A DNA stretch of 38,646 nt from an uncultured Oscillospiraceae bacterium (GTDB taxonomy: Bacteria; Bacillota; Clostridia; Oscillospirales; Oscillospiraceae), in assembly GCA_944387225.1 (NCBI GenBank), contig CALXDY010000073.1:1-38646 (forward strand), read 5' to 3'. The translations under genes were made by a program, and so were the position numbers. Shown piece by piece: positions 34,900 through 38,646 of the stretch. The notes beneath the pieces are model-generated. The model was not told the DNA's origin, did no database searches, and was given only the letters and a program-made list of their open reading frames with translations. Within the stretch, counting starts at the first letter, position 1. Each line of letters opens with the position of its first letter.

Positions 34900-34935
34900 T
34901 TCCCGCTCCCCGGCTTCCGGCGGAGCGGGAATTTT
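34900..34935 (+). terminator. terminator after divIVA
   Basis: A stem TTCCCGCTCC (34900-34909) with GGAGCGGGAA (34922-34931) is followed by TTTT. It ends the miaB-divIVA run. Confidence 0.8.
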
Positions 34936-35033: not shown

Positions 35034-35062
35034 TTGCCTTTTCCTGGGGATAGTGTTACAAT
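35034..35062 (+). promoter_or_regulatory. promoter of the racemase-fold/ATP-grasp operon
   Basis: TTGCCT (35034-35039) and TACAAT (35057-35062) have a 17-base spacer and a TGT extended -10. The leader is about 48 bases. Confidence 0.7.
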
Positions 35063-35116
35063 GTTCACTACCGATGGACAATCCCACCCCACTGGACAGA
35101 AGGGAGCTTATTTATC

Positions 35117-36184
35117 ATGCGTACGCTGGTCATCGACACCTCCGCTCTCCGTGCCAACATCAACGTGATCAAAGAACGTGCAGCCGGAGCCATACTCTAC
35201 GGCGTGGTCACGGGGGACGGCGGCGGCCTTGGCACAGCCAATCTGGCCCGACTGATCCGCAACGAGGGAATCGGCCGTTTCGCGGTGGGCTCTGTGGAAG
35301 AGGCCCGCGCCCTGCGGGAGGCCGGGTTCGTGGATGAAGAGATCCTGATGCTGCGCTCCACCGTGGATCGGGAGGAGCTGGAGCAGCTGGTGGATCTGGG
35401 CGTGGTATGCACGGTCTCCTCTGTGGACACCGGTATGGCTCTGAACGCTGTAGCGGAGAATCGCTCCACCGTGGCGGAGGCCCATATTCAGGTGGACACC
35501 GGAATGGGGCTGGGCGGTTTCCTGGTCGGGGAACCGGAGAAGATCCTTCTGGCCTACCGTTCCCTGCCCAATGTAGCCCTGTCCGGCATTTATACCCAGC
35601 TGCACACCGCCTCCCGGCAGGATCGGGAGGTTGAAACCCAGCTCAACCAGTTCCACCAGGTTTTGGACGCCATCCATGCCGCCGGCTTTGAGACGGGCAC
35701 CGTCCACGCCGCCGGCTCTTACGCCCTGCTCCACTTCCAGCAGGCCCGGCTGGACGCCGTGCGGGCCGGCTCGGTTCTGCTGGGCCGCTGCCGCCGCACC
35801 TCCGGAGACGGTCTGACCACCGTAGGCTGCGGCCAGGCCCCCCTGTCCGAGGTGCGCTGGCTGCCCAAGGGCCACACCGTCGGGGCAGACCGGCTGGTCA
35901 CCCTGAAACGCCCCACCCGGGTGGCTGTGCTGCCAGTGGGGTACCAAAACGGACTGGGGGTGGATCGTCCCAGAGACTCCGGACTGTTTGCCGCCTTCCG
36001 CCAGTGGCGGGCCAGACGCCGCCGCACGGTCCTGGTGGGCGGACAGCGGGTTCGGGTCATCGGCTCCATCGGCTCCACCGAAACCATTCTCAACGTAACC
36101 AATGTAAAATGTTCCGCCGGGGATCTGGCTACCTTTGATCTGGATCCCCTATTCGCCAAGGGGTTTCAGCTGGAATTCCGCTGA
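35117..36184 (+). CDS. alanine-racemase-fold protein lacking the catalytic residues
   Basis: The overall 355-residue sequence follows alanine racemase (Alr): an N-terminal barrel (IDTSALRANINVIKERA, FAVGSVEEARALREAGF, VDTGMG), RAGSVLLG and a C-terminal beta domain. The usual active-site motifs are changed. VVKxxAYGHG, which holds the PLP lysine, reads VVTGDGGGLG, so the lysine position is Thr32. The DTGMGR arginine is Leu132. The region of the second catalytic base (YGATY in Alr) reads VGADR near 255-259, and the CMDQ motif reads GSTE (319-322). A working PLP racemase is therefore unlikely. The frame is intact and has a promoter and AAGGGAG, so it is probably a functional pseudoenzyme, not a dead gene. 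It heads the ATP-grasp, racemase and Mur-ligase group. Confidence 0.85.
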   Translation: MRTLVIDTSALRANINVIKERAAGAILYGVVTGDGGGLGTANLARLIRNEGIGRFAVGSVEEARALREAGFVDEEILMLRSTVDREELEQLVDLGVVCTVSSVDTGMALNAVAENRSTVAEAHIQVDTGMGLGGFLVGEPEKILLAYRSLPNVALSGIYTQLHTASRQDREVETQLNQFHQVLDAIHAAGFETGTVHAAGSYALLHFQQARLDAVRAGSVLLGRCRRTSGDGLTTVGCGQAPLSEVRWLPKGHTVGADRLVTLKRPTRVAVLPVGYQNGLGVDRPRDSGLFAAFRQWRARRRRTVLVGGQRVRVIGSIGSTETILNVTNVKCSAGDLATFDLDPLFAKGFQLEFR

Positions 36185-36223: not shown

Positions 36224-37441
36224 ATGAACAACAATCATTCCTTTCAGCCGCTGCTGTTTGGCGGCGATCTCAACGTTTACAGCGTCGCCCGAGCCTTTCA
36301 TGAAGCTTACGGCGTAAAAAGTGTGGCATACGGCAAATTTTCCTCCTCCCCCTGCCACGGGAGCGCCATCATTGACTACCGGATCTGTCCCGACATTGAG
36401 CAGGATTCCGTCTTCCTCCACACGGTGGAGCATGCCGCCCGGGAGTTTTCGGAGACCACCATTCTCTTGCTGGGCTGCGGGGACAGCTATGTCCACCTGG
36501 CCGCCAAGTACCGGGACAAAATGCCTGCCAATGTCATCGCCCCCTATATCGACGGCTCCCTGCTGGATACCCTGATCAACAAGGAGAAGTTCTATCAGCT
36601 GTGCGACCAGTACGGCATCGACCACCCCGCCACCTTCATCTACGACAAATCCATGGGCCATGACTTTACCCTGCCCTTCGGCCCTCCCTATATCGCCAAG
36701 CCCGCCGACAGCGTGGCCTACTGGGCCACCGGAGCCCACGGCCTGTCCAAGGTCTATGTCTGCCAGACCTGGGAAGAGCTGCTGGCCGCCCTGGACCAGG
36801 TCTATCAGGCCGGCTACCCGGACCACATGGTGCTGCAGGAGTTCATTCCCGGAGACGACACCTATATGCGGGTGCTCACCAACTACTCCGACCGCAGCGG
36901 CAAGGTCAAGCGGATGTGCCTGGGGCACGTACTGCTGGAGGAGCACTCCCCCCTGGGAATCGGCAATCACGCCGTGATCATTACCGACTATGACGAGGCC
37001 CTGTGCCGCCAGATCCAGGGTCTGCTGGACGCCCTGCATTACACCGGCTTCTCCAACTTCGACATCAAGTTCGACGCCCGGGACGGGAAGTACAAGGTCT
37101 TTGAGATCAACTGCCGCCAGGGCAGAAGCAACTACTACGTCACCGGCGCGGGGGAGAACATCGCCCGCATCCTGGTGGAAGACCGCATTGAGGGCAAGGA
37201 GCTGCCCTTCCGGATTACCCAGACCCGTTCCCTGTGGCGGATGATCCCCAAGGAGTTGGTGTTTGAGTTTGTCCCTCAAAAGTACCACAAGGAAATTAAG
37301 GAGCTAATCCATCAGGGAGCGGATTCCCACACCCTGGTGTATCACGGGGATAATTCCCCCGCACGGCGGCTCCGCATTTGGAAGAACCACCTGGGCAACG
37401 TGCGGCGGTTCCGCCGCTACAACCCCAAGCCCCAGAATTAA
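36224..37441 (+). CDS. ATP-grasp carboxylate-amine ligase, candidate D-aspartate ligase
   Basis: This 405-residue enzyme of the ATP-grasp superfamily joins a carboxylate to an amine using ATP. The ATP-binding lysine is in YIAKPADS (Lys159). VLQEFIPGDDTYMR (from 203) follows. Metal ligands sit in FDIKFDA (Asp280) and FEINCRQGRSN (Glu294, Asn296). There is no signal peptide. The overall type resembles the D-aspartate ligases that add D-Asp to the peptidoglycan stem lysine in lactic acid bacteria. Support comes from the neighbours: an aspartate/glutamate racemase just downstream and a MurE-like ligase after it. Other members of this superfamily use different amino acids, so the substrate is inference. 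The Shine-Dalgarno sequence is weak (GAGG). Confidence 0.82.
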   Translation: MNNNHSFQPLLFGGDLNVYSVARAFHEAYGVKSVAYGKFSSSPCHGSAIIDYRICPDIEQDSVFLHTVEHAAREFSETTILLLGCGDSYVHLAAKYRDKMPANVIAPYIDGSLLDTLINKEKFYQLCDQYGIDHPATFIYDKSMGHDFTLPFGPPYIAKPADSVAYWATGAHGLSKVYVCQTWEELLAALDQVYQAGYPDHMVLQEFIPGDDTYMRVLTNYSDRSGKVKRMCLGHVLLEEHSPLGIGNHAVIITDYDEALCRQIQGLLDALHYTGFSNFDIKFDARDGKYKVFEINCRQGRSNYYVTGAGENIARILVEDRIEGKELPFRITQTRSLWRMIPKELVFEFVPQKYHKEIKELIHQGADSHTLVYHGDNSPARRLRIWKNHLGNVRRFRRYNPKPQN

Positions 37442-37489: not shown

Positions 37490-37515
37490 CCACACTTCCC
37501 CCGGGAAATGTGGAA
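37488..37515 (+). other. inverted repeat before the racemase start
   Basis: TTCCACACTTCCC (37488-37500) and GGGAAATGTGGAA (37503-37515) form a 13-position stem with one mismatch. It overlaps the end of the terminator T run and ends 8 bases before the GGAGG of the racemase. It could be an anti-terminator partner, a translation control hairpin or an operator. Confidence 0.5.
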
Positions 37516-37537
37516 CGATTTCCGGAGGACTCCACCT

Positions 37538-38257
37538 ATGAAACAAGCTCGACTGGGCGTGATCGGGGGAATGGGCCCCCAGGCCACCAATACCTTTTAC
37601 CAGTTTGTCATTGACCGTACCCAGGCTCGCACCGACCAGGAGCATCTGTCCATGCTGATTTTCTCCGACAGCCAGATCCCGGACCGTACCCAGGCCATTC
37701 TGGGTACCCCCCAGCAGCGGGAGGAGGTTTTTCAGCGGCTGCTGGCAGACGCCCGGCTGCTGGAGCACGCCGGCTGCACCGTGCTGGCCGTGCCCTGCAA
37801 TACCTCCCACTTCTTCCTGGATCAGGTACAGGCGCAAATCTCAATCCCTATTCTGCACATGATCCGGGAAACCGCCAAGCTGCTGGCCAGCCAGGGCAAA
37901 CGCCGCCCCGGCATCCTGGCCACCGACGGCACGATCCGCAGCGCGCTATACCAGAAGGAATTTATTGCCCTTGGTATGACCCCTCGTATTCCATCTGCTC
38001 CCGTCCAGCGCCAGGTCATGTCCCTGATTTATGACGATGTGAAGGCGGGGAAAGCGGGAGATCCGGAGAAATTTGCCGCCGTCCATCAGGATTTGGAGGA
38101 GCAAGGCTGCGACTGCGCGGTGCTGGCCTGCACCGAGCTATCCGTATTTGCCGCCCAGCACCACCTGCCTCCCTTCTATGTGGACGCCATGGCGGTGCTG
38201 GCCGAGCGGGCCGTCCAAGCCTGCCACAAACCTCTGCGAACTATATATTCCAAGTAA
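37538..38257 (+). CDS. aspartate/glutamate racemase
   Basis: This PLP-independent racemase uses two cysteines as acid and base. The 239-residue protein begins LGVIGGMGPQATNTFYQ, the family start. PCNTSHFF holds Cys87 and LACTELSV holds Cys198; both catalytic cysteines are present. The substrate is more likely aspartate than glutamate, since the GGMGP start is typical of aspartate racemases, but this is not proven. The ATG at 37538 follows GGAGG by 9 bases; an in-frame ATG at 37508 is less likely. Together with the ATP-grasp ligase it would supply and attach a D-amino acid. Confidence 0.92.
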   Translation: MKQARLGVIGGMGPQATNTFYQFVIDRTQARTDQEHLSMLIFSDSQIPDRTQAILGTPQQREEVFQRLLADARLLEHAGCTVLAVPCNTSHFFLDQVQAQISIPILHMIRETAKLLASQGKRRPGILATDGTIRSALYQKEFIALGMTPRIPSAPVQRQVMSLIYDDVKAGKAGDPEKFAAVHQDLEEQGCDCAVLACTELSVFAAQHHLPPFYVDAMAVLAERAVQACHKPLRTIYSK

Positions 38258-38271
38258 TGGAGGTAGCTGAT

Positions 38272-38646
38272 ATGTCCTTTCCCATTCGCCCCCTGGGGGA
38301 GTATGCGGCGCTGCTGGAGCAGGCCGGTCTGCTCACCGCCCCCATTCCCGACGGTCTGGATCGGGCGTTTCCTGTCTCCCTGGTGTCCTGCGACTCCCGG
38401 GAAGTCGTTCCCGGTACCCTGTTTCTCTGCAAGGGCGCGGCCTTCCGGCCGGAATTTCTCCAAAGCGCCCGGGAGAAGGGGGCCGTGGCCTATGTCAGCC
38501 AGACGGAATATCCGGACTGCGGCCTGCCTGCCCTGCTGGTGTCCGACATGCGCCGTGCCATGGCGCCCCTGGCGGATCTGTACTATGACCACCCCTCCGC
38601 CAAGGTGAAGGTGGCTGGTTTTACCGGCACCAAGGGCAAGTCCTCC
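38272..38646 (+). CDS. MurE-type Mur ligase, 5' part only
   Basis: The frame is open from an ATG at 38272, preceded by GGAGGT, to the window end (125 codons). The start resembles MurE (UDP-MurNAc-tripeptide synthetase): residues near 39-55 read SCDSREVVPGTLFLCKG, the MurE substrate-binding domain. The end shows a P-loop GFTGTKGKSS, with Lys where most MurE proteins have Asn (GTNGKT). It follows the racemase by 14 bases. The amino acid it adds and whether it is the main MurE or a second copy cannot be told from this fragment. Confidence 0.88.
   Translation, partial: MSFPIRPLGEYAALLEQAGLLTAPIPDGLDRAFPVSLVSCDSREVVPGTLFLCKGAAFRPEFLQSAREKGAVAYVSQTEYPDCGLPALLVSDMRRAMAPLADLYYDHPSAKVKVAGFTGTKGKSS

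Follow-up and report, generated by a model that had tools for sequence, protein, structure and literature searches.

A lysine-less alanine-racemase homologue of the Oscillospiraceae, probably a repurposed pseudoenzyme

The window examined here, i.e., the whole stretch of 38,646 nucleotides from an uncultured Oscillospiraceae bacterium, carries near its end a gene that raises a simple question: is a protein with the architecture of an alanine racemase (Alr) still that enzyme when the residues of catalysis have been replaced and, if not, what is it likely to do? The gene is the following:

35117-36184, plus strand: coding sequence of the putative pseudo-racemase, 355 aa, a lysine-less alanine-racemase fold (reading frame, Pfam, AF2 and Foldseek)

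Reading frame, fold and active-site columns

The frame is open from its ATG start through 355 codons. The product matches both Ala_racemase_N (153.1 bits; E value 1.2e-44; Pfam cut-off 24.1) and Ala_racemase_C (42.4 bits; E value 6.2e-11; Pfam cut-off 25), and scores 139.9 bits against TIGR00492, the curated NCBI equivalog for alr, which is below the cut-off of 168. For annotation this is a warning, in that both Alr domains pass the Pfam cut-offs and yet the gene should not count as alr. The AF2 model has a mean pLDDT of 91.8 and a pTM of 0.85. Its top PDB match is VanTg (PDB: 4ecl), both by sequence (1.1e-26) and by fold (Foldseek; 7.7e-32); the predicted fold gives TMq values of 0.77-0.88 with the 50 PDB matches listed, and the other nearest solved relatives, by sequence as well as by fold, are Alr-type racemases. 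An intact frame with Alr architecture, as claimed in the original prediction made from the sequence, is thus confirmed by the open frame, the two domains and the fold match.

Active-site residues were placed by alignment with canonical Alrs and with lysine-bearing members of an Alr paralogue family, for which we coin the name Alr2; the Lys and Arg motifs align without gaps. Residue numbers such as K39 and Y265, and the roles attached to them, are those of GsAlr. The positions concerned are:

35210-35212, plus strand: Thr32 (ACG) at the PLP lysine column
35510-35512, plus strand: Leu132 at the column of the DTGMGR arginine
35597-35599, plus strand: Gln161 at the column of the YTHF histidine
35762-35764, plus strand: Arg216 at the Arg219 column, Arg in 46/46 rows of the window's subclade B
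35885-35887, plus strand: Ala257 at the catalytic tyrosine column of YGATY
36071-36082, plus strand: GSTE (319-322), aligned with CMDQ, a motif mostly altered in lysine-bearing Alr2 too

The PLP-binding lysine is present in all seven canonical rows and in 35/35 Alr2 rows of the comparison, the latter having been chosen for their lysine, with L160 left out; the window protein has Thr32 instead. The arginine of DTGMGR is likewise replaced, by Leu132, and on both residues the original prediction stands. It had also read YGATY as VGADR, which does not agree with the alignment: ADRLV (257-261) falls opposite YGATY, and the catalytic tyrosine contributed by the second subunit (Y265), conserved in 7/7 canonical and 35/35 lysine-bearing Alr2 rows, is therefore replaced by Ala257. 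Its placement of GSTE at CMDQ is correct. As a sign of lost catalysis, however, this change does not serve, because the Cys and Asp of the motif are mostly lost in lysine-bearing Alr2 relatives as well. The usual C-terminal segment of Alr is also missing from those relatives. The loss of the YTHF histidine (Gln161) is a further change, beyond the motifs listed previously.

A sequencing error or a wrong frame was ruled out as the source of these substitutions: identical residues occur in an independent assembly (L088; 97% identity, with the same active-site losses) and the state is clade-wide. No compensating lysine was found at the PLP column. A lysine shared by at least 80% of the lysine-less rows occurs only at Lys142 and Lys251, both outside the PLP column, and Lys251 is positioned six residues ahead of the Tyr265 column.

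Distribution and descent of the lysine-less family

A full-length orthologue (69-100% identity) is present in 32 of 37 same-genus genomes, and inner stops were found neither in these 32 nor in the listed matches from the family. The gene is dispensable in some of the genus, because its other five genomes (G024, G029, G031, G032 and G033) are without it. A scan of named genomes gave 77 loci from the best 80 of 84 matches. They comprise 73 close relatives, of which two are truncated at contig ends, together with L105, which is more distant, and three canonical Alrs (L108-L110); the carriers among the matches listed include Flavonifractor plautii ATCC 29863 (orthologue at L083, 2438-3502), Pseudoflavonifractor, Lawsonibacter and Intestinimonas. 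In the family set, for which 150 genomes were taken from the family of the window organism (148 of them with completeness of 90% or more and contamination of 5% or less), an Alr2-family match at E<=1e-40, a threshold which leaves weaker second copies out of the counts, was obtained in 72. By the state of their Alr2, 44 of these genomes have only the lysine-less form, 24 only the lysine-bearing form and four have both. For 168 different proteins whose genes have 120 nt or more of upstream sequence, canonical ones included, the PLP-lysine column holds T in 77, K in 51, S in 32, A in six, and M and N in one each, so that 117 are without the lysine.

Trees were built with the lysine and the other active-site columns removed, and were rooted on seven canonical rows. 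The quick tree (106 rows) included the window protein, 27 proteins from L005-L107, 58 of the 60 from L143-L202 (L144 and L171 being left out), 13 order-level rows and seven of ten canonical ones; L203-L218 stand outside it. The careful tree (87 rows) is the same set minus 19 rows with long branches or near copies. Lysine-less proteins form one clade in both, with a support of 99/95 in the careful tree and an SH-aLRT of 94 in the quick tree, and the lysine state requires two changes on either. This clade is nested inside Alr2 and is separate from canonical Alr. In the 35 lysine-bearing Alr2 rows that surround it (L160 again left out), the arginine is kept in 34 and the tyrosine in 35. The one exception is the protein of L160 (G084), which has a Lys at the PLP position inside the lysine-less clade, but is without the arginine and the tyrosine; it may be either a reversal or an odd survivor.

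A gene of the FemAB family lies directly upstream of most lysine-bearing Alr2 genes (the copy at L112 matches PF02388 with an E value of 9.9e-64). It occurs in 22 of the 24 family genomes that have only lysine-bearing Alr2, at a distance from Alr2 of at most 160 nt in 19, about 2.7 kb in two and about 9 kb in one. Outside the family set, FemAB was found at 11 of 13 lysine-bearing loci (L105 and L111-L122; the exceptions are L119 and L120). By contrast, only one of the 44 genomes with lysine-less Alr2 alone has FemAB, far from the pseudo-racemase gene. No FemAB match was obtained in the four genomes with both forms, on the stretches fetched around 48 lysine-less loci, in 36 of 37 same-genus genomes, the exception being G035, or in the window's own genome (a MAG, 81% complete). 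The residues that mark FemAB-linked Alr2 are replaced in the window protein, with T, L and A at the Lys, Arg and Tyr columns. There are, however, counter-cases, since six of the 28 genomes with a lysine-bearing copy are without FemAB (G084, G114, G070, G100, G109 and G191), and the association does not establish a cause, because the losses of lysine and FemAB coincide essentially once on the tree. In toto, the alignments and trees show descent of the window gene from Alr2, a family which elsewhere has the PLP lysine and the catalytic tyrosine and usually adjoins FemAB.

Some further features of Alr2 loci were noted. The same-genus MAG G035 (72% complete) has, on contig C32 (L201), a lysine-bearing Alr2 beside FemAB in addition to a lysine-less copy, the extra pair representing either a transfer or contamination. 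Behind Alr2 in other families of the order there is often a cyclic-di-AMP receptor gene (PF06153; L112, L114-L117 and L123), and often there are genes that, from their sequences, we take to be holB-like and ricT-like (L112-L118 and L121-L123).

Partners, pocket, neighbours and expression signals

A search for a second, canonical alr in the same genome, which the original prediction had proposed, yielded a fragment of one. This second Ala_racemase_N match begins at the very edge of contig C63, so that the N-terminal part with the lysine is not on the contig. The motifs GMGRLGF, VSYGRTY and ICMDMC are present in it. An Alr-like match besides the orthologue is present in 36 of 37 same-genus genomes, the window's own included and G023 (65% complete) being the exception, and motifs were inspected in five of them, namely the window's genome and G024, G029, G032 and G033 (L124-L127). 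The active site of Alr is shared between subunits across the dimer interface. The window protein might accordingly act as a prozyme or dominant partner, forming a heterodimer with canonical Alr that it activates or inhibits, and the common occurrence of a potential partner agrees with this. In trypanosomes, dead paralogues are known to serve as activators of their partners (PMC3663545). Nevertheless, these additional Alr matches of the genus are about 28-37% identical and the canonical rows form a separate, old branch, and we regard such a partnership as unlikely.

Whether the protein could remain an enzyme was considered from the variability of its columns, expressed as entropy percentiles within subclade B (46 rows, including the window) and subclade A (17 rows). 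The Tyr265 column, invariant in lysine-bearing Alr2 rows, is at the 97th percentile in subclade B; Tyr43 is at the 89th and Asp313 at the 90th, the latter being equally variable in lysine-bearing Alr2. On the other hand, the Arg219, Ser204, Gly221 and His200 columns do not exceed the 15th percentile in subclade B, and Arg216, Ser201, Gly218 and His197 are the conserved cofactor-side residues of the window's subclade. The Arg216 column is presumably that of the arginine which contacts the cofactor ring. Gln161, Gly200 and Tyr276 are found in 89-93% of subclade B, and, beyond the catalytic set, many columns of the lysine-less proteins are close to invariant. In subclade A, Ser204 is kept, Arg219 is lost in 7/17 rows and Gly221 in 8/17, because of which the pocket argument does not span the whole clade. 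As read from the alignment, the catalytic set is gone from both subclades and the pocket is remodelled along separate lines. Such a pattern would be expected of a changed binding site; ligand binding there is an inference. The conservation of the cofactor side, together with that of Gln161, Gly200 and Tyr276, would also be compatible with PLP held non-covalently or with a wholly new chemistry. With the lysine and the catalytic tyrosine lost and the Tyr43 and Asp313 columns free to vary, we consider continued catalysis quite improbable.

The original prediction further suggested, as a possibility, a scaffold or sensor for the ligase and the racemase encoded next to the gene. Downstream of it, the window contains:

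36224-37441, plus strand: ATP-grasp ligase, perhaps D-aspartate ligase-like
37508-38257, plus strand: protein of the Asp/Glu-racemase family, from profile matches
38257-38646, plus strand: first part of a MurE-like ligase gene that runs past the window end, from profile matches

The ATP-grasp protein has no match in the PDB at E<=0.1. The ligase is adjacent to the pseudo-racemase gene in many loci of the genus, and occurs in 27 of 32 genus genomes with that gene vs none of the five without it (Fisher 6e-4, uncorrected for kinship). In the family set it was found in 20 of the 44 lysine-less-only genomes (45%), in one of the 24 with lysine-bearing Alr2 only (G084), and in 18 of the 78 (23%) that have no Alr2-family match at E<=1e-40. 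From these three counts it follows that the pseudo-racemase is not an obligate partner of the ligase. In 24 of the 44 lysine-less-only genomes the ligase is absent, and elsewhere the neighbours differ. At Flavonifractor-like loci the gene is beside divergent miaB and dtd/metallo-hydrolase genes, and in subclade A the neighbours are mostly miaB, mutL, miaA and hfq, the names mutL, miaA, hfq and miaB being those that we presume from sequence. (Neighbouring genes were taken from codon-scored and conservation-scored gene calls, some antisense frames persisting in the latter, the DNA being rich in G+C.) The enrichment and adjacency notwithstanding, we judge a dedicated role for this ligase and Asp racemase very improbable, and that part of the original prediction is not upheld.

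In the window, the pseudo-racemase gene stands after divIVA. A link with the cell-division genes yggS, sepF and divIVA was considered and set aside as lineage-specific, being found, among the loci searched, only in the window and L088. FemAB (25/150 genomes) and the ATP-grasp ligase (39/150) have no genome in common (hypergeometric 2.4e-4, uncorrected for kinship), which suggests that they are alternative systems for the peptidoglycan cross-bridge. In the kinds of genes alone, the downstream part of the window, with its ATP-grasp ligase, Asp/Glu racemase and MurE-like ligase, may be said to recall the aslA-racD operon of L. lactis, through which D-Asp is added to the peptidoglycan side chain (PMC4155827). 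The Asp/Glu racemase at 37508-38257 exceeds the cut-off of the asp_race model with 206 bits against 93.1, and also that of the cysteate racemase model CuyB with 205.7 bits against 190. In L047 (9278-11644), L067 (9308-11680) and L098 (9256-11676), a fusion joins the MurE-like gene to an amino-acid-kinase domain, by eye of the NAG-kinase type; in L088 (9160-11316) and L043 (9852-11807) the C-terminal stretch is shorter, has no kinase domain at E<=0.01, and looks degenerate.

The signals that precede the gene are:

34915-34930, plus strand: terminator-like hairpin behind divIVA, at chance level in the scan
35034-35062, plus strand: sigma-70-like promoter TTGCCT-17-TACAAT with an extended -10, recurring upstream of many lysine-less relatives
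35100-35106, plus strand: ribosome-binding-like AAGGGAG, 10 nt upstream of the ATG, from sequence

When identical proteins are counted once and relatedness is left uncorrected, the pattern TTGNNN-16/18-TANAAT within 100 nt upstream is present in 66 of 117 lysine-less genes vs 0.68 in mononucleotide shuffles, and in one of 51 lysine-bearing genes, canonical ones included, vs 0.2 in shuffles. A scan of the window stretch gave one such site, which is at chance level (0.8 expected), and the promoter argument thus rests on the relatives. On this pattern the lysine-less gene is probably expressed. Values of dN/dS (NG86) were 0.05-0.43 in 18 chosen lysine-less pairs, among which two nearly duplicate each other, and 0.18 in one lysine-bearing pair; they are rough, because dS is high in several pairs and YN00 gave no estimate for 11/19. 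They show that the lysine-less genes are under purifying selection. A decaying gene on its way out, to which the active-site loss and the absence from five of 37 genus genomes might point, is already contradicted by a single old clade with intact frames, by these dN/dS values, by the recurring promoter and by the many near-invariant columns beyond the old catalytic set, and is scarcely credible.

Proposed role and comparison with known systems

The features by which a fold-type III pseudoenzyme is recognized, namely a retained fold, lost catalytic residues and purifying selection, are all found in this protein. Loss of the racemase function is probable, because both the lysine that holds the cofactor and the catalytic tyrosine are gone. 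The best reading, in which we have fairly good confidence, is that of a conserved pseudo-racemase, i.e., a descendant of Alr2 repurposed for non-catalytic ligand binding or regulation. A repurposed pseudoenzyme had been suggested at the outset, and it is well supported by the single clade, the intact frames, the purifying selection, the separate promoter in many relatives and the presence of a canonical alr fragment on another contig of the genome. Numerous gut bacteria belonging to one family, then, keep under strong selection a racemase-shaped protein that has neither the Lys nor the Tyr and is probably no longer that enzyme. Its new role would most likely be non-catalytic ligand binding or the regulation of a partner.

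The lysine was lost on the stem of one Oscillospiraceae clade of Alr2, in which the gene stands apart from femAB, often with its own promoter; purifying selection retains fold and frame while the catalytic columns drift. In the mechanism that we propose for this pseudo-racemase, the window protein would neither racemize amino acids nor form an internal aldimine with PLP. It would be expressed as a non-catalytic binding protein, probably dimeric, whose remodelled pocket may sense or hold a small ligand, perhaps phosphorylated or amino-acid-like, and which would probably regulate an enzyme of the cell wall or of D-amino-acid metabolism. Ancestral Alr2 may already have had a second role, left once catalysis became dispensable. 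Tentatively, we speculate that this non-catalytic role was the sole survivor after the FemAB cross-bridge was lost in one gut lineage, and that the pocket now senses another ligand, a scenario that is possible rather than probable.

The active-looking and inactive forms share one bacterial family, which makes the step from enzyme to pseudoenzyme directly testable. Our literature search, made without bioRxiv preprints and with few subscription papers, found no inactive alanine racemase. With canonical Alr (TIGR00492; fold-type III) the window protein shares both Pfam domains, the predicted fold and, in subclade B, the cofactor-side columns. It differs from it in lacking the PLP lysine, the catalytic tyrosine, Tyr43, Arg136 and His166, and in a different, shorter C-terminus, and it falls below the TIGR00492 cut-off. 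In the catalytic domain of the VanTg serine racemase (4ecl), the PLP lysine is retained (VVKAE) and the catalytic column holds Tyr (VGYSR), whereas the window protein has neither. The altered C-terminus is common to the window protein and the FemAB-linked Alr2 of the Oscillospirales; the latter, unlike the window protein, keeps Lys, Arg and Tyr and usually adjoins FemAB.

It is well established that dead enzymes can be kept for regulation, e.g., the paralogue of ornithine decarboxylase (ODC) in animals. ODC itself is of fold-type III. The proposed way of working of the window protein has its closest known parallel in dead paralogues such as the antizyme inhibitor AZIN1, which derives from ODC and is kept for regulation (PMC6313458 and PMC3663545). 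AZIN1 differs in being reported as monomeric and unable to bind PLP, in being eukaryotic, in being derived from a decarboxylase and in acting by binding antizyme.
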